A stretch of DNA of 36,430 bases from contig JAICWR010000004.1 in assembly GCA_025934715.1 (NCBI GenBank), positions 1-36,430 on the forward strand, given 5' to 3'. Below the pieces are notes generated by a model. That model saw only the letters and a list, made by a program, of their open reading frames with translations. It did not search any database and was not told the DNA's origin. Below, one piece after another: positions 28,456 to 36,308 of this stretch. This stretch comes from Candidatus Saccharimonadota bacterium (GTDB taxonomy: Bacteria > Patescibacteriota > Saccharimonadia > Saccharimonadales > UBA10212). A program made the translations under genes and the position numbers. Position 1 is the stretch's first letter. Each line of letters starts with the position of its first letter.

Positions 28456-30249
28456 ATGGCAAGAATAGACGATGAGACGAAGCGGCGCCTGGCCCGTAAG
28501 ATGCGGCGCCGGCGCCGCAGCGCGGTTCAGCTCAGCCAGCAAGCGGATGAGCAAATAGAACGGTTGCTAATCAAACGCTTTGGCCGCCTAGCTTCGGTTA
28601 GGCGTTTCGTGGTGCTTTGGATCACTCTGCTTTTAGTGCTTATTCTGGCTGGCGTTCACCAGCTGCTCGGCCTGTCAAATTATTACCAGGATCTCCGGCC
28701 GGTGCCCGGCGGCCTATACACCGAGGGGGTCATAGGTAATTTCACTGACGCTAACCCGCTTTATGCCACGGGCGCGGCCGACACAGCGGTCAGCAGGCTG
28801 GTGTTTTCCGGACTATTTAAATACGATAACCATAATCGGCTTGTCGGAGATCTTGCCCAAGACTACAGCCTCATCGGTCCCCAGCAAACTCGTTACATCG
28901 TGCATCTTAGGCATGGCCTTAAGTGGCAAGACGGCAAGCCTCTGACAGCTAATGACGTCGTCTTCACTTACCAAACCATTCAGAATATCGAAGCGGAGTC
29001 GCCTCTGTACTCCAGCTGGAGCGGCATTAAGGTGACAGAACAAGACCCATACACTGTAGTTTTTGACTTGCCCAATTCACTCAGCGCTTTCCCGTACTCT
29101 TTGACTAACGGGATAATTCCGGCGCACCTGCTTAGTGATATCCAGCCGGCCGACCTGCGTAGCGCGCCGTTTAACACCCAACCGGTCGGTAGCGGACCAT
29201 TTGAATGGAAATTCATAGACGTCACTGGGGGTACCAGTACCGACCGTCAACAGCGAATCAGCCTGGCCGCCTTTAAGAATTATGCCGGTGGCCAGCCAAG
29301 GTTGGATGGTTTCAACCTAATCACTTATTCCGACGAACAGCATATGCTCTCGGCCTTTAGCTCTAAACAAATAGGCGCCATGAGCGGCCTTGACGACTTG
29401 CCCGACTCGCTTAAAAACGACAAGAGCGTCCAAACCTATGTGACGCCGCTCACCACCGCCGTGATGGTTTTTTTCAAAAACTCCGAACCGCCATTTAACG
29501 ACTTATCGGTCAGGCGAGCCCTGGTTCTAGCAGTGGACCGCAGTCAGCTTGACGGCCTGTTCGACAGGCCGGTGCAGCTGGTCGACAGCCCGCTGCTAAA
29601 GGACCAGCTCGGTTACAATCCAACGCTGACCGAACCGGCGTTTAATTTGACAGCAGCTAAACAAGTGCTGGCAGCCGACGGCTGGACGCCCGGCAATAAT
29701 GGCATGATGGTCAAAAAAGGCCAGCCGCTGACTTTCACTTTGACGGCACCGGACACCCCGGACTATACAAAGACGGCCCAGTTCCTGCAGGCGGAATGGC
29801 AGCAGCTAGGGGTCAAACTCCAAGTTAATTATTACGATAACGAAGACCTTCAAACTTCCGTGGTGGCCGACCACAGCTATCAGGCTCTGCTCGACGGCAT
29901 AAGTATCGGCGTTGATCCAGATGTGTATGCTTTTTGGGACAGTTCCCAGGCCTCAATAACTTCGGCTGGCCATCTGAACCTGAGCGAGTATAAATCAACT
30001 ATCGCCGACAGGGCCGTCGAGGCCGCCCGGACTCGCTCGGACGCCAAAGTCAGGTCAGTCAAATACACCCAGTTCCTGACCCAATGGCGAAATGACCTGC
30101 CAGCCCTGCCCCTATATCAGCCAAACTACCTATATATAACCCGTGGCCAGGTTTTCAACTATCAGCGGACAGCCGATAACTCCGCGGCCGACCGGTTTGA
30201 TAATGTGAACAATTGGATGGTCCGTCAAAAGCGGGTGACCGTGCAATAG
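28456..30249 (+). CDS. TM-anchored ABC transporter family-5 (peptide/oligopeptide) solute-binding protein
   Basis: IGNFTDANPLYATGAADTAVSRLVFSGLFKYD...LRHGLKWQDGKPLTANDVVFTYQTI; highly basic cytosolic N-terminus plus single TM instead of lipobox. Confidence 0.9.
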   Translation: MARIDDETKRRLARKMRRRRRSAVQLSQQADEQIERLLIKRFGRLASVRRFVVLWITLLLVLILAGVHQLLGLSNYYQDLRPVPGGLYTEGVIGNFTDANPLYATGAADTAVSRLVFSGLFKYDNHNRLVGDLAQDYSLIGPQQTRYIVHLRHGLKWQDGKPLTANDVVFTYQTIQNIEAESPLYSSWSGIKVTEQDPYTVVFDLPNSLSAFPYSLTNGIIPAHLLSDIQPADLRSAPFNTQPVGSGPFEWKFIDVTGGTSTDRQQRISLAAFKNYAGGQPRLDGFNLITYSDEQHMLSAFSSKQIGAMSGLDDLPDSLKNDKSVQTYVTPLTTAVMVFFKNSEPPFNDLSVRRALVLAVDRSQLDGLFDRPVQLVDSPLLKDQLGYNPTLTEPAFNLTAAKQVLAADGWTPGNNGMMVKKGQPLTFTLTAPDTPDYTKTAQFLQAEWQQLGVKLQVNYYDNEDLQTSVVADHSYQALLDGISIGVDPDVYAFWDSSQASITSAGHLNLSEYKSTIADRAVEAARTRSDAKVRSVKYTQFLTQWRNDLPALPLYQPNYLYITRGQVFNYQRTADNSAADRFDNVNNWMVRQKRVTVQ

Positions 30250-30258
30250 TCTGCGAAT

Positions 30259-30286
30259 AAAAAACTCCCTTTCAGGGGAGTTTTTT
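30259..30286. terminator. Bidirectional terminator hairpin between the solute-binding protein gene (+) and tRNA-Leu (-)
   Basis: AAAAAACTCCC-tttcag-GGGAGTTTTTT; T tract on either strand; right edge touches the encoded CCA of tRNA-Leu. Confidence 0.85.
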
Positions 30287-30370
30287 GGTGGGAAGAGAGG
30301 GACTCGAACCCTCAAGCCTTGTGGCAACGGATTTTAAGTCCGCAGCGTATACCAGTTCCGCCATCTTCCC
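30286..30370 (-). tRNA. tRNA-Leu(UAA), CCA encoded
   Basis: GGGAAGATGGCGGAACTGGTATACGCTGCGGACTTAAAATCCGTTGCCACAAGGCTTGAGGGTTCGAGTCCCTCTCTTCCCACCA; anticodon loop CTTAAAA, long variable arm, canonical GG D-loop and TTCGAGT T-loop. Confidence 0.95.
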
Positions 30371-30374
30371 GGGC

Positions 30375-30448
30375 TGGAGGCGCGTACGGGATTCGCACCC
30401 GTGTGAAAGGTTTTGCAGACCTACGCCTAACTCCTCGGCCAACGCGCC
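30375..30448 (-). tRNA. tRNA-Cys(GCA), CCA encoded
   Basis: GGCGCGTTGGCCGAGGAGTTAGGCGTAGGTCTGCAAAACCTTTCACACGGGTGCGAATCCCGTACGCGCCTCCA; anticodon loop CTGCAAA; 7 bp acceptor stem, U discriminator. Confidence 0.93.
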
Positions 30449-30585
30449 TCGATTGGCAAAACTGGAAAAATCGGAAGGTCAGTACAATTATACTAAATTC
30501 ACCTCTTATATATTGCTAAAATCGGTCAAAAACGGTATTGTTTAATCACTAAGCAAAATAAAGAGGTGGGTAGAAGGGGTAGCCA

Positions 30586-30726
30586 ATGAGCTGGGATTGG
30601 AGCTCACCTATTGCACTGGGCATTTTTTTGCTGATGTGCGGCGGCACCGTGGTCTTAATTGGCCTCGGCGCGTCACTTGCTGCCAGCAGCGCCCGCTGGA
30701 CCAGCGGTTCAAACCGACGCCGCTAA
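30586..30726 (+). CDS. Small membrane protein (46 aa), not in ORF track
   Basis: MSWDWSSPIALGIFLLMCGGTVVLIGLGASLAASSARWTSGSNRRR*; TM plus basic C-terminus; agaaggggt SD-like sequence upstream; followed by a palindromic terminator. Confidence 0.65.
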   Translation: MSWDWSSPIALGIFLLMCGGTVVLIGLGASLAASSARWTSGSNRRR

Positions 30727-30789
30727 TTTAACAGCACCAACAAAGTCGCTAATACTTTCTAAAATAAAAATCCGAATAAAAACTTCACA

Positions 30790-30819
30790 TAAAATTCCCA
30801 TCATATGATGGGAATTTTA
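30790..30819. terminator. Perfect 30 bp palindrome, probable bidirectional terminator
   Basis: TAAAATTCCCATCAT|ATGATGGGAATTTTA between convergent genes. Confidence 0.75.
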
Positions 30820-30839
30820 GTTCTTAAACGCTACTTGCT

Positions 30840-31382
30840 CTAGTAAGGGTAACCCGAACCGCTGGAAGAAGCCGGCTGGGTGGAACTGGAGCTAGGCTGG
30901 GAGGCCGCGGCCGAAGAGGGCATGGCCACAGAGAAATTCTGAACTCCGTTGCCAGTGACTTGGGTGCCGCTATCGCCAGTGAAGAAGTAAAGCGGATGTC
31001 CGTTGTAAACGTACTGGACCTGTCCGTTATCAGACCGGGTGAGGGTCGTGATTCCCGACGGCAGGCTTGCAGTGGAAGCTTTAGCCGTGTAGGCGGGCCA
31101 GTTCGAGAGGCACGAGCCGGTGCAGTTACTCTTATTTGTGCTGTCGCCGTTGAAGAAGTACAAAGGCTTGCCGCTAGGGTCGGTCAGGATCTTTCCCAGC
31201 TGGGGATCGGTTTTAGTTAGTACAATCGAATTGTTAGTGGCCGGTGTGTTAGCGGTTTGGGAAGTTGTCCCGGGCGAATTGTTCGTGGAAGGGCTGGAGG
31301 ACTTATGGAAAACGGCGAATAAAATCGCGGCGATCACCACCACGACGATTACGCCTATCACTCCCTTGATACTTCTACTCAT
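30840..31382 (-). CDS. TM-anchored COG4315/PF03640-like repeat protein
   Basis: N-terminal TM; ILTDPSGKPLYFFNGDSTNKSNCTGSCLSNWPAYTA and YVYNGHPLYFFTGDS repeats. Confidence 0.85.
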   Translation of the reverse strand: MSRSIKGVIGVIVVVVIAAILFAVFHKSSSPSTNNSPGTTSQTANTPATNNSIVLTKTDPQLGKILTDPSGKPLYFFNGDSTNKSNCTGSCLSNWPAYTAKASTASLPSGITTLTRSDNGQVQYVYNGHPLYFFTGDSGTQVTGNGVQNFSVAMPSSAAASQPSSSSTQPASSSGSGYPY

Positions 31383-31441
31383 TCCTATCTCCTAATTAGT
31401 TTATTGCACTAAATAATATTTTACTGAAAAAAACCTGAAAA

Positions 31442-32050
31442 TCAGTCAAACGAACCAGTCTTAACCTCGCCAGCCCTTTCGTAGTTAGCCAAAATAATTC
31501 CGCTGTGCAACGCTTTAGAATCCTGTAGCTTATAAGCGGCTGGGATTGTCCCAGTACCGAATAAGCGTTTTCCGTCCCCAAGTGTAATCGGGTAAATTCT
31601 TAATCGCAGCTCATCAATCAAGTCGTTTTTTAGCAGCGTCTGTATGAGCACACTACTGCCCCACACATGGAACACCGGGCCATCTTCTTTTTTTAAAGCC
31701 TTTAGCTTGGCTACTACATCACCGCTGATAAGCACTGACTCTTTCCAGCTAAGGCCCGGGTCTTTACTGGCCACAACGTATTTTGTGCATCTATTAAACG
31801 GGTCGCCCACCATGCCTTTTTGCTTGGGCCAATAAGTTTTCCAAAGATCATAAGTTTTTCTGCCCAACAGCAAGTCAAAAGGCACGCTTAGTTCTTTTTG
31901 AAGAATTGGCTCCATAGCTTTATCGGAAAACGGCGCGGTCCAGCCGCCATATTTAAAACCTTCCGCCTCATCTTCCTTTGATCCACCCGGAGCCTGCATG
32001 ACACCGTCCAGGGTAAGCATCATAAAAACAACTATCTTCCTCATACCCAT
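31442..32050 (-). CDS. Dihydrofolate reductase/RibD C-terminal domain family protein
   Basis: KIVVFMMLTLDGVMQAPGG, DLLLGRKTYD, VWGSSVLIQTLLKNDLIDELRLRIYPITLGDGKRLF. Confidence 0.9.
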   Translation of the reverse strand: MGMRKIVVFMMLTLDGVMQAPGGSKEDEAEGFKYGGWTAPFSDKAMEPILQKELSVPFDLLLGRKTYDLWKTYWPKQKGMVGDPFNRCTKYVVASKDPGLSWKESVLISGDVVAKLKALKKEDGPVFHVWGSSVLIQTLLKNDLIDELRLRIYPITLGDGKRLFGTGTIPAAYKLQDSKALHSGIILANYERAGEVKTGSFD

Positions 32051-32132
32051 ATCTTAGCAAAAAACACTAAGTTTCGTCAGACCTGTGACACTTTAATTTA
32101 CCTAGTATTTTTGATAGAATTTACCCTGTTAT

Positions 32133-32209
32133 GCGGGTGTAGCTCAGTTGTTTAGAGCGCTTCCTTGCCAAGGAAGAGGCCGTGAGTTAGAGTCTCATCA
32201 CCCGCACCA
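32133..32209 (+). tRNA. tRNA-Gly(GCC), CCA encoded
   Basis: GCGGGTGTAGCTCAGTTGTTTAGAGCGCTTCCTTGCCAAGGAAGAGGCCGTGAGTTAGAGTCTCATCACCCGCACCA; anticodon loop TTGCCAA. Confidence 0.93.
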
Positions 32210-32570
32210 TCCTTCGACAGGCTCAGGATTGGTGACTATGTATTATCTGTATATTCTTGAATGTGACGATGCCTTTTTATACGTTGGCATTACTAAAGAC
32301 GTGGAGAGAAGGCTCGCTCAGCATCGGAGCAAATATTCACCTCACACAAAGCGTTATAAGAAATTAGAATTAGTCCATACTGAAGAATTTGTGACCAGGG
32401 CAGATGCTGAGCATAGAGAAAGACAGCTCAAGGGGTGGTCAAGGGCCAAGAAAAAGGCATTAATCGAGCAAGATTTTGAAAAACTTACGTTTCTAAGCCA
32501 ATCTAGCCTGTCGAAGGATGGTGCCAAGAGTTTACCCTGAGCTTGCCGAAGGGTCTCATCACCCGCACCA
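32192..32570 (+). mobile_element. Candidate GIY-YIG insertion unit at the tRNA-Gly 3' end
   Basis: Direct repeat GTCTCATCACCCGCACCA at 32192-32209 and 32553-32570; inner 20 bp inverted repeat GCACCATCCTTCGACAGGCT (32204-32223) / AGCCTGTCGAAGGATGGTGC (32505-32524); GIY-YIG ORF between. Confidence 0.7.
32238..32540 (+). CDS. GIY-YIG nuclease family protein (UPF0213/YhbQ-like)
   Basis: MYYLYILECDDAFLYVGITKDVERRLAQHRSKYSPHTKRYKKLELVHTEEFVTRADAEHRERQLKGWSRAKKKALI; start at ATG 32238 (the track start lies inside tRNA-Gly). Confidence 0.9.
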   Translation: MYYLYILECDDAFLYVGITKDVERRLAQHRSKYSPHTKRYKKLELVHTEEFVTRADAEHRERQLKGWSRAKKKALIEQDFEKLTFLSQSSLSKDGAKSLP

Positions 32571-32655
32571 ATGAATCTTTGAATATCAGCACCAAATGCG
32601 GCTGGGGCAACCACACACGTCTTTTTTACCGGCTTGGTGTATGATTTAGGTACAC

Positions 32656-33753
32656 ATGCGTATCGGCATATTATCCGCTCAACTTAGCGAGCTGGATAAC
32701 AGGGAAAACAGGCGCTTTGCAAGAGAAATCCTGCTACTGGGCCACCGCGCCGTAATTATAAACTATCGTGATGCCGTTATCGTAACGACCAAAAATAAAC
32801 AAGTGCTGTATCAACCCAACCGGCAGGGAATATTAAGGCCGGTCAGGGTCCATGCCGTAATCCCACGTATTAACGAAGCTGACTCCAAGTCAATAAATCT
32901 CGGCACCTTGGCCCTTGAGTGTTTGATAGCCGGCGGAGCCTACTCAACGGCTTCGCCATCTGCAATCAGACTATCCAAAGATAAAACGCACAGCCTGCTT
33001 GCTATGTCTAGCGCCGGGATCACTACCCCAAGGACGGCCGCTATCTCCACCTCCGCAGACAAGGTGCTTGACCTTGAAAAAGTCCTTAAGGTGGTTGAAC
33101 CAACCGCTAACAGAAGATTAATCATCAAAACCAATATAGGCACAGGCGGCAAAGGTGTGATGCCGGCTAACTCCAGAGGCGAAGCCCGGGCGATAGTGGA
33201 GGGTTTTTTATCAAACTCAATACCGATACTTTTGCAACAGTTTATTGAGCCGACTAAAAAAGATCACTATATAGACTTTAGGATTTACGTAATAAATGGA
33301 AAATACGCCGGCACTATGATTCGCGAAGCTACTCGTCCCGGGGAAGTTCGGGCAAACATAGACCTGGGAGGCAAAGCAATCTTCTACCAGCCGACTCAAG
33401 AAGAAATAAAAATGGCCGAGGCGGCATGCGAAGCGGTGGGCTTAACGATTGCCGGCGTCGATATCATACCTTCTGGCAATAAGCGTTTTGTGATCGAAGT
33501 GAATAGCAGCCCTGGGTTCGCTTTTGAGGAAATCACCGGGACGAATTTAGTTAAAAGAATGGCGCGCCAGGCAATCGCTGGCGTTGATTTGGATCAGGTG
33601 TCAGCGCCAACCAAGATAAAAGAGGTGCTTAATACACCTGTGCCAATTCCTACCCCTAAAGTTATCAGAAAGGCCCGGCCCAAGATCAGCAAAGCCCTTT
33701 CGCCCGAGGCGATTAAACAAATCAGGATCAAAGTCAAATCAATCTCCGAGTAA
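32656..33753 (+). CDS. RimK-like ATP-grasp family protein
   Basis: RRLIIKTNIGTGGKGVMPA, ILLQQFIEPTKKDHYIDFRIYVINGKYAGTMIREA, GVDIIPSGNKRFVIEVNSSPGFAFEEITG. Confidence 0.9.
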   Translation: MRIGILSAQLSELDNRENRRFAREILLLGHRAVIINYRDAVIVTTKNKQVLYQPNRQGILRPVRVHAVIPRINEADSKSINLGTLALECLIAGGAYSTASPSAIRLSKDKTHSLLAMSSAGITTPRTAAISTSADKVLDLEKVLKVVEPTANRRLIIKTNIGTGGKGVMPANSRGEARAIVEGFLSNSIPILLQQFIEPTKKDHYIDFRIYVINGKYAGTMIREATRPGEVRANIDLGGKAIFYQPTQEEIKMAEAACEAVGLTIAGVDIIPSGNKRFVIEVNSSPGFAFEEITGTNLVKRMARQAIAGVDLDQVSAPTKIKEVLNTPVPIPTPKVIRKARPKISKALSPEAIKQIRIKVKSISE

Positions 33754-33774
33754 CGGCCCTAGGTGTTAACGTGC

Positions 33775-34263
33775 CTAGGCGTTGACGTGGAAGCTGAGTG
33801 TGGCCAGGGTGACTTGCTTGTTATGGCTGTTGTAGTACATGGTTGCGGTGCAGTCAGCCGAGCCGCCGGTCCAAGCGCCCGAGGTCAGCTTTAAGAAATC
33901 CTGATAGGCGAATGGGTTTCCACTGTAGAAAGATGCGTCAGCATGCAGCACTAACACCCCGTTTTGATAGCAGGCGGTTTTAACAGAAGGAGCTGAGGTG
34001 GCGCCAGAGGAAACGCTGTATGTGATCGTATCGTTATAGTTGGGCAGGCCATCATTATTAAGATCATCGGATAACACCAAACTAAGGGTGTTACCACCAC
34101 CACCATTTCCACCCTTATGGGGCGCGGCCAGGCTTACCCAAAGGGCAAAAGCTCCAACTAGGGCGAACACCAAAACGTACATCACAAAATCGCGGTGCGA
34201 GAACGTTGCCTTCTTTTTGACCGAATTAGATTTTCTTTTTGCCATTTTTCTTTTCCTAACCAT
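33775..34263 (-). CDS. Hypothetical TM-anchored extracytoplasmic protein
   Basis: Lys/Arg-rich N-terminus, TM FVMYVLVFALVGAFALWVSLA, then beta-rich domain with two Cys. Confidence 0.8.
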   Translation of the reverse strand: MVRKRKMAKRKSNSVKKKATFSHRDFVMYVLVFALVGAFALWVSLAAPHKGGNGGGGNTLSLVLSDDLNNDGLPNYNDTITYSVSSGATSAPSVKTACYQNGVLVLHADASFYSGNPFAYQDFLKLTSGAWTGGSADCTATMYYNSHNKQVTLATLSFHVNA

Positions 34264-34341
34264 ATTGTGGGCTTAAATTCTTATGATTGACTATATCTGT
34301 ATCCTTAACTATGTCAATGGGGCTGTGGATAAATAGGGAAT

Positions 34342-34370
34342 AAAAAGCGCGGGCCGGTCGAGCGGCCCGC
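34342..34370 (-). terminator. Terminator downstream of DUF1761-like gene
   Basis: GCGGGCCG-gtcgag-CGGCCCGC stem (plus-strand view); on the minus strand followed by GCTTTTTATT. Confidence 0.75.
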
Positions 34371-34436
34371 ACCACAATTTGTTTGTTTGGTTTTATTGTA
34401 AACTGTCCGCTTGTGGATTTTTGGTGTGATATTTAC

Positions 34437-34877
34437 TTAGGCCATCATGGCGCCGATAATCAGCCCCATCACAAAGAGCGTGACCAGCCGGTTGCCTAAG
34501 TTTATATAAAGTTTAGTTTTGGGTCGCGGATCAAACACGTCGTGCGCGACCAAAGCCGTGGCAGCAAACCCCACCCAGCTCAAAAAAGCCACGTCTAGAG
34601 CCGATGCCATCCAGCTGACACCCAGGTAACTATGTACGTACACAGTGAAAAGTGACATCACATAAGCTGTCAAAAACGAAACGATGAGCAAGATCGGCAT
34701 CACTTTAGCCCGGCCCCGCCTCATTTCCTTTTCAGTCACCCCTAGGGCTTCGCCCCAAGCCGGTCCAAACAGGAGCGGGCTGTACCAGATAATTCCGACA
34801 ACGATTGCCGACAGCCCGGCTAGTATCCACCCCCATACACTTACATGCGCGTATAAATGCGTGCTAAACGTATTCAT
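34437..34877 (-). CDS. DUF1761-like membrane protein
   Basis: SAIVVGIIWYSPLLFGPAWGEALGVTEKEMR, four hydrophobic segments. Confidence 0.85.
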   Translation of the reverse strand: MNTFSTHLYAHVSVWGWILAGLSAIVVGIIWYSPLLFGPAWGEALGVTEKEMRRGRAKVMPILLIVSFLTAYVMSLFTVYVHSYLGVSWMASALDVAFLSWVGFAATALVAHDVFDPRPKTKLYINLGNRLVTLFVMGLIIGAMMA

Positions 34878-35521: not shown

Positions 35522-35893
35522 TTAACGAGTTTGTGGGTTGCCGCACAGAGTACTGTTATTGGTAGCTGTTGCTTGACCATCGGCACCGTTGCTATTTTGT
35601 GCATTTCCCGCGAGTGAGTTTCCAGAGCTGTCAGTAGCTCGGCCTGAAGTGCTGTTCCCGAAGTTAAAATCTTTCCCAAAAGCACCAAAAGCACCATGAC
35701 CTGCGCAGGGGGTGTTCATAGTAGCAGTGTCAAATCCTGGCTGAGTTCCATAAGCGGAGCCATCGCCAGCACTGCTGGCAAGAGCTGGGACGGCGAAACC
35801 GGCAACCATTACAACACTGGCGCCAACTCCTATTACGTATTTTTTAATACTCCTTTTGCCTCTTTGTACTTTTTGGCCATAGCGATATACCAT
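35522..35893 (-). CDS. Small secreted two-Cys protein, paralogue of 36009..36308
   Basis: Signal peptide (VIGVGASVVMVAGFAVPALA); C.GHGAFGAFGKDFNFG...GADGQATATNNSTLCG. Confidence 0.8.
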   Translation of the reverse strand: MVYRYGQKVQRGKRSIKKYVIGVGASVVMVAGFAVPALASSAGDGSAYGTQPGFDTATMNTPCAGHGAFGAFGKDFNFGNSTSGRATDSSGNSLAGNAQNSNGADGQATATNNSTLCGNPQTR

Positions 35894-36008: not shown

Positions 36009-36308
36009 CTAGGCCTGGCAATTAGTATGGGAGTTATTGCTTCCAGTAGCACCCGGATCCTGACCAACAGCACCGTCGTGGTAACCTGGCGTACCACCAG
36101 CTTGTCCTAAGAATCCGAAGTTACCGTTTACATTTGCGAAAGCACCGTGCGCTGATCCGCATGCAGAAGATTGATCTGATGCGGCGTGGCTAATGGCTGG
36201 AATAGCCACGGCAAAACCCATGCCGCTAACGGCCATTATTGCTGAGGCGGCAATTGCTACCTTTACCTTTATCTTTTTAATACCTTTTTCAAGGTCATAC
36301 TTTGCCAT
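36009..36308 (-). CDS. Small secreted two/three-Cys protein
   Basis: Signal peptide; ACGSAHGAFANVNGNFGFLGQAGGTPGYHDGAVGQDPGATGSNNSHTNCQA; shares C-x(3)-HGAF and NNS..(C) with neighbour. Confidence 0.8.
   Translation of the reverse strand: MAKYDLEKGIKKIKVKVAIAASAIMAVSGMGFAVAIPAISHAASDQSSACGSAHGAFANVNGNFGFLGQAGGTPGYHDGAVGQDPGATGSNNSHTNCQA

Follow-up and report, generated by a model that had tools for sequence, protein, structure and literature searches.

A putative mobile unit with a GIY-YIG nuclease gene between inverted REP-like palindromes at a tRNA-Gly gene of a Saccharimonadales bacterium, and its possible relation to CGTC-tagged REPs

Few repeats are as common in bacterial genomes as REPs, and RAYT is the known enzyme for the half of them that carries the GTAG tag. 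For the CGTC-tagged REPs, which include dRS3 of Neisseria and RPE-4/6 of Rickettsia, a dedicated transposase was reported in 2013 to be absent (Di Nocera et al., PMC3733652). Our search, which left out subscription papers and preprints, found no literature tying GIY-YIG nucleases to REPs, and a prior description is possible. A nuclease is nowhere mentioned in a paper on the REPs of Bradyrhizobium or in the RepRanger paper, palindromes are not mentioned in the available part of a survey of the GIY-YIG superfamily, and no published biochemistry on the GIY-YIG proteins described here was found.

The window analyzed here is the whole stretch of 36,430 nt at the start of contig JAICWR010000004.1 in the 714-kb genome (G000) of an ultra-small Candidatus Saccharimonadota bacterium. 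In it, a tRNA-Gly gene is followed by a small GIY-YIG ORF and a series of repeats (Table 1). The initial annotation had described an 18-nt direct repeat of the tRNA-Gly 3' end, GTCTCATCACCCGCACCA, that brackets the ORF at a spacing of 361 nt, and a perfect 20-bp inverted repeat inside the unit; both are confirmed. The direct repeat reaches 20 matches in 21 positions when extended to 32189-32209 and 32550-32570, while the inverted repeat lies at 32204-32223 and 32505-32524, with GCACCA of the tRNA within its left arm. Chance origin of the 18-nt repeat and the 20-nt inverted repeat is ruled out by their length (~360/4^18 for the 18-nt repeat). A point absent from that annotation is that the arms of the inverted repeat are imperfect REP-like palindromes with the core ATCCTTCGACAGGCTCAGGAT. 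The outer ACCA of the left palindrome consists of the discriminator base A and the CCA of the tRNA, and a second, diverged palindrome precedes tail copy 2. The annotation was also correct that no integrase or transposase is visible, as the 100-aa GIY-YIG ORF is the only relevant ORF found between the direct repeats. The GC content of this gene is 42%, against 52% across the window. Elsewhere in the window, two adjacent small proteins predicted to be secreted are encoded on the minus strand at 35522-35893 and 36009-36308; they resemble paralogues, and both contain a motif of the AHGAFA/GHGAFG type.

Table 1. Positions of the tRNA-Gly gene, repeats, palindromes and nuclease ORF in the window.
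Feature	Position	Strand	Basis
tRNA-Gly (GCC) gene, CCA encoded, 3' end being the target site	32133..32209	+	ARAGORN; Rfam RF00005, 70.4 bits
tRNA 3' tail, 18-nt direct repeat copy 1, GTCTCATCACCCGCACCA	32192..32209	+	repeat comparison
tRNA-Gly 3' tail, copy 2, GTCTCATCACCCGCACCA	32553..32570	+	repeat comparison
Left REP-like palindrome, CACCATCCTTCGACAGGCTCAGGATTGGTG	32205..32234	+	hairpin, -10.1 kcal/mol; also upstream of the G006 homologue (L007)
GIY-YIG nuclease ORF, 100 aa, ATG at 32238, stop at 32540	32238..32540	+	PF01541, 3e-17
Right REP-like palindrome, GCACCATCCTTCGACAGGCT-AGATTGG, inverted left copy with a small deletion	32498..32524	-	sequence comparison
Second, diverged palindrome, ACCCTGAGCTTGCCGAAGGGT, holding the ORF stop codon	32534..32554	-	sequence comparison

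The family core of the encoded protein spans residues ~1-88, and the remaining C-terminus is translated from the right palindrome. The protein belongs to the GIY-YIG superfamily (PF01541, E=3e-17), which supplies its only catalytic domain in Pfam. Y5, Y15, G17, R25, H29 and E61 are invariant in the comparison with 15 relatives, so that the catalytic residues are kept. Its AF2 model (pLDDT 89) has a fold matching UPF0213 proteins, Slx1 and the UvrC domains; the UPF0213 proteins 1zg2 and 1ywl are the only sequence relatives with a solved structure, and Slx1 and UvrC come next by fold. To our knowledge, the function of 1zg2 and 1ywl is not known. No Rfam intron was found at 30000-34500 of the window, the protein is without an intein or a NUMOD-type recognition domain, and a search of a library of defence proteins returned very weak matches only.

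The closest homologue of the window protein (54% identity) is found in G006, a genome of another genus of the same family. There, ACCATCCTTCGACAGGCTCAGGATTTGGTAC stands immediately before the ATG of the homologue and a decayed inverted copy follows the gene, which is interrupted by an in-frame stop. No tRNA is found at the site. Since the same palindrome surrounds the gene of G006 without a tRNA, the palindromes belong to the gene rather than to the tRNA, and the comparison indicates that the gene and palindromes of the window probably travel together. Among the genomes of candidate phyla (CPR), 33 window-like proteins were compared. The REP core stands no more than 120 nt upstream of 17 genes (control: 1/33 in a window of equal size at a distance of 600 nt; 1.1 by shuffling) and no more than 160 nt downstream of nine, with both sides occupied in four. 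In the genome of the window, solo cores occur at only two other places, both without the gene: contig C8 at ~7541 and contig C25 at ~31376 (L004 and L005). The copy on C8 sits within a larger inverted repeat (GTGAGG...CCTCAC). The tag of the window palindrome is ACC-like instead of CGTC or GTAG; its stem starts with AT, yet the palindrome falls outside the CGTC REP superfamily. The right palindrome is damaged, so the window copy may be dead. The window unit is real and mobile in kind, and its present copy is probably decayed.

A scan of 295 Saccharimonadales genomes for small GIY-YIG genes revealed them in 58 genomes, with up to seven per genome. Inverted repeats with a score of at least 14 were found in the flanks of 24/117 genes versus 0.33% with swapped flanks, and the best pairs are inverted REPs of full length that bear a CGTC or TGTC tag, such as CGTCATTCCTGCGAAGGCAGGAATCCAGT around L021. 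When 84,980 species were scanned with the REP-flanked subfamily of the L021 type, 80 loci were recovered from many phyla. In this sister clade of the window protein, matched inverted REPs (score at least 13) flank the gene at 53 of 79 loci. The repeats are mostly classical CGTC REPs, such as CGTCATTCCCGCGAAGGCGGGAATCCAG, and fit the superfamily defined by a CGTC (TGTC, CCTC) tag, a stem that starts with AT and a CCA tail. For the 79 loci, the swapped-flank null is as high as 16%. This reflects the similarity of REPs between species and in itself belongs to the finding. The genes encode GIY-YIG proteins of ~95 aa and are found in many phyla, including cultured Bradyrhizobium, Pseudoxanthomonas and Flavobacteriaceae; a phage search with the sister-clade protein L249 of Pseudoxanthomonas gei gave no match. 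In a tree of 195 proteins, a single branch (support 100/98) separates all REP-flanked proteins from the rest. The window protein and its G006 homologue form a pair that neighbors the REP-flanked side; at the fork that joins them, the grouping of the window with the REP clade is weakly supported (92/26).

The abundance of the REPs follows the presence of the gene. With REP-rich defined as at least eight copies of the CGTC-REP pattern, eight of the 295 Saccharimonadales genomes are REP-rich, and seven of these eight are among the twelve carriers of sister-clade genes (hypergeometric P=1.7e-10); in the eighth, G017, the gene is present just as a fragment at the end of a contig. The sister-clade GIY-YIG genes are a strong candidate for the missing mobilizing enzyme of the CGTC REPs.

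Copies within one genome (L097/L121/L122 and L220/L225) share 82-88% of their sequence between the tags; beyond the tags the homology ceases, and the flanks are unrelated. Multi-copy alignments run from tag to tag for three copies in G153 (82-85%, ~400 nt) and for two in one gammaproteobacterial MAG (88%), and homology of the same extent is found between two copies in MAG SpSt-1139 and two in Bradyrhizobium. The sister-clade gene and both of its palindromes form a unit that is copied, and the ends of this unit are the tags. No target-site duplications are evident at sister units in the multi-copy alignments. One of the G153 units follows smpB, where three congeners have other sequence without a unit or REP; the junction is not base-exact because the downstream neighbor is not syntenic in the congeners. 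In G041, a unit and one further gene lie between genes that we take, from their sequence, to be dnaK and dnaJ. With sister copies moving as palindrome-gene-palindrome and the palindromes of G006 lying at a tRNA-free site, the earlier suggestion of a minimal self-contained mobile unit without an integrase is supported. In three species of Bradyrhizobium, L205, L209 and L260 represent one shared GIY-YIG locus whose flanking REPs differ; it looks as if the REP family was swapped while the gene stayed, as in vertical, domesticated inheritance. Such inheritance is known for RAYTs.

The history of the window locus was followed in its relatives. Congener G002 has the same left neighbor (a DHFR-like protein, 63%) and tRNA-Gly, and its contig ends at the CCA; a second tail was not found in the G002 contigs. 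In congener G001, which has homologues of window neighbors on both sides, the p30840 homologue is followed by tRNA-Arg in place of tRNA-Gly, 45 bp and the ATP-grasp homologue, with no unit. Both arrangements fit an insertion in the lineage of the window, and neither is a base-exact empty site. The empty site with one repeat copy that was to be expected in close relatives under the initial annotation was therefore not found among them. Other tRNA-Gly loci in the relatives have different neighbors, and no second tRNA-Gly insertion of the window lineage was found among the loci searched. A dedication of the unit to tRNA-Gly is not supported either, its relatives being mostly elsewhere and that of G006 being without a tRNA. 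That the unit restores the tRNA tail is unproven, as no true empty site was found and tail copies of the same length also occur without a GIY-YIG gene.

Other GIY-YIG lineages of the Saccharimonadales are associated with RNA genes. A tRNA lies within 120 nt of 40/121 GIY-YIG genes and is on the strand of the gene in every case. The genes of the tRNA group are directly at the 5' side of the tRNA (L013, L024, L025, L027, L035, L110, L116, L127, L138, L150, L160, L164, L173, L182, L186 and L190). Often, the gene extends 10 nt into the start of the tRNA and takes its stop codon from the TAGCTC box, whose TAG it shares. The rnpB group is found directly at the 5' side of the RNase P RNA, which Rfam identifies at L012, L026 and L143 only, while L022, L148, L165, L132 and L141 are assigned by their common inverted repeat and tree position. 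In the tRNA and rnpB groups, a partial copy of the target RNA is often present upstream. In genome G015, GIY-YIG genes lie within rRNA genes, L136 in the 16S and L016 in the 23S beside two group I introns. In the tree, the RNA-gene lineages are grouped according to their targets (tRNA-Trp, -Asn, -Ser, -Leu, -Gln, -Cys, -Lys and rnpB), and the window protein is outside all of them. In G004, a GIY-YIG gene of a different lineage follows the 3' end of tRNA-Gly and has TCACCCGCACCA on both sides; a plausible empty counterpart of this unit is found in congener G012.

Copies of tRNA tails are also found without the nuclease gene. At 19 inspected tRNA loci, the 3' tail is repeated at a distance of 126-192 nt downstream and the intervening DNA contains no GIY-YIG gene; most of the exact copies measure 16-23 nt. 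Since tail copies are common without GIY-YIG genes in this order, they are a general feature that cannot be credited to the window unit alone. The gene-free spacers downstream of many tRNAs usually begin with a terminator, often contain part of the T-arm in inverted orientation and end with the tail copy (L044, L053, L066, L068, L073, L078, L079, L018, L027, L097, L127, L131, L151, L164, L183 and L185). They are possibly a non-autonomous tRNA-tail element.

We propose, with a probability of roughly two in three, that the window feature is a compact mobile unit in which a GIY-YIG gene lies between inverted REP-like palindromes, that it landed on the CCA of tRNA-Gly, that its neighbors are the clade of the CGTC/TGTC REPs and that the nuclease would mobilize the unit and solo REPs. 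From its fold and the co-occurrence, the nuclease would recognize hairpins formed by the palindromes, probably when the DNA is single-stranded or cruciform, and may nick at the tag; host repair would then copy the unit and solo REPs to new sites. This would be analogous to the action on GTAG REPs of the TnpA-REP (RAYT) proteins, whose catalytic fold is unrelated. We prefer the recognition of hairpins as the mechanism because Slx1, which is near in fold, is described as a promiscuous structure-selective endonuclease (PMC9071465). More speculatively, judging from three palindromes (those of the window, G006 and the solo copy on C25), the end of a tRNA gene, a hairpin followed by (A)CCA, may resemble a palindrome with an ACC tag, which would explain the landing site. 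Surviving insertions would be those that keep a working tRNA.

An alternative is a homing cassette, as the initial annotation had suggested, in which the nuclease cuts intact tRNA-Gly, recombination copies the unit in and the tail copy restores the tRNA. The RNA-gene lineages of the same order, each with its own target at tRNA, rnpB or rRNA genes and with partial target copies, provide a precedent, as does the tRNA-Gly unit of G004 with its plausible empty site in G012. Yet the window protein stands outside those lineages and pairs with a protein that is not encoded at a tRNA, the unit has REP ends that most RNA-gene lineages are without, and the tRNA-Gly loci searched in relatives yielded no further insertion of its lineage. 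We consider this alternative unlikely, and tRNA-Gly-specific homing is not favored as the main reading because the nearest relatives sit elsewhere. An independent origin of the tail copy is the main alternative to its copying at insertion: the copy would come from the common tRNA-tail element or from a tyrosine recombinase acting in trans, and the REP-GIY-YIG unit would have entered or replaced the spacer later. Integrases that target tRNA genes typically have att cores of this length, and the gene-free copies at the 19 tRNA loci match that of the window in length. Against such a succession of two events, which we regard as quite improbable, the terminator of the spacers and their frequent inverted T-arm piece are both missing from the window, and the window palindrome abuts the CCA exactly.

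The gene could also be an ordinary, immobile one, i.e., a vertically kept nuclease whose REPs are terminators or passive insertion targets. Association of a gene with REPs is not by itself proof that GIY-YIG proteins move REPs, which could be insertion targets or terminators. REPs are known targets of other insertion sequences (PMC1525189), and at the Bradyrhizobium locus the gene is fixed while the REPs change. The patchy presence of the genes (58/295 genomes), their several copies per genome and the low GC content of the window gene speak against immobility, and the matched pairs of terminal REPs and the tag-to-tag homology of copies at unrelated sites argue against REPs as mere targets or terminators. 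The multi-copy alignments already disfavor an immobile gene, which we judge very improbable. 

A wider form of the proposal is put forward tentatively, at somewhat less than even odds: small GIY-YIG proteins would be dedicated mobilizers of CGTC REPs (dRS3, RPE-4/6 and more) and thereby a second REP transposition system, non-homologous to RAYT. The superfamily would also have yielded the RNA-gene lineages, each at one structured RNA gene, with recognition of hairpin DNA as the link, and the window unit would be a bridge between them, as a REP unit that landed on the hairpin and CCA at the end of a tRNA.

The window is one small instance, and it is the larger pattern, a candidate enzyme for the CGTC REPs, that merits follow-up. 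The occurrence of the ~95-aa GIY-YIG family in cultured species makes the question of the missing CGTC-REP transposase testable. If the proposal is true, GIY-YIG is one more chemistry by which bacterial DNA is moved, and there is an explanation for an abundant family of genes whose annotation is just 'GIY-YIG nuclease family protein'. Another group that is almost unexplored consists of the GIY-YIG lineages at tRNA, rnpB and rRNA genes of the Saccharimonadales.

Compared with known systems, the window unit shares with small integrative elements at tRNA 3' ends the repetition of the tRNA 3' end at both of its ends, but it lacks an integrase gene, is ~360 bp long and has REP ends. Like free-standing or intron-borne GIY-YIG homing endonucleases, it has a GIY-YIG domain, is inserted at a conserved RNA gene and would have the end of its target restored; unlike them, it has no intron or intein and no recognized DNA-binding module, its ends are palindromic and its sister units are not confined to a single target. 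Single-domain GIY-YIG proteins of the UPF0213 or YhbQ-YazA type (1zg2 and 1ywl) and Slx1, which cuts branched DNA, are similar in fold and size, although UPF0213 proteins have not been described with palindromes. The palindromes flanking the sister-clade genes (CGTCATTCCCGCGAAGGCGGGAATCCAG) are of the same kind as the CGTC REPs (PMC3733652), which were described without a dedicated transposase, whereas those of the sister clade enclose a GIY-YIG gene, and the window palindrome is without a CGTC tag. RAYT/TnpA-REP systems (REPtrons and REPINs) differ in that their enzyme is an HUH Y1 transposase, while the window protein has only GIY-YIG in Pfam, with neither the HUH motif nor the catalytic Tyr of a Y1 transposase, and in their GTAG tag, in place of which CGTC/TGTC is found in the sister clade and an ACC-like tag in the window. 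With these systems, the window and the sister clade share a nuclease gene between inverted tagged palindromes, solo palindromes elsewhere in the genome and a palindrome abundance that is tied to the presence of the gene.
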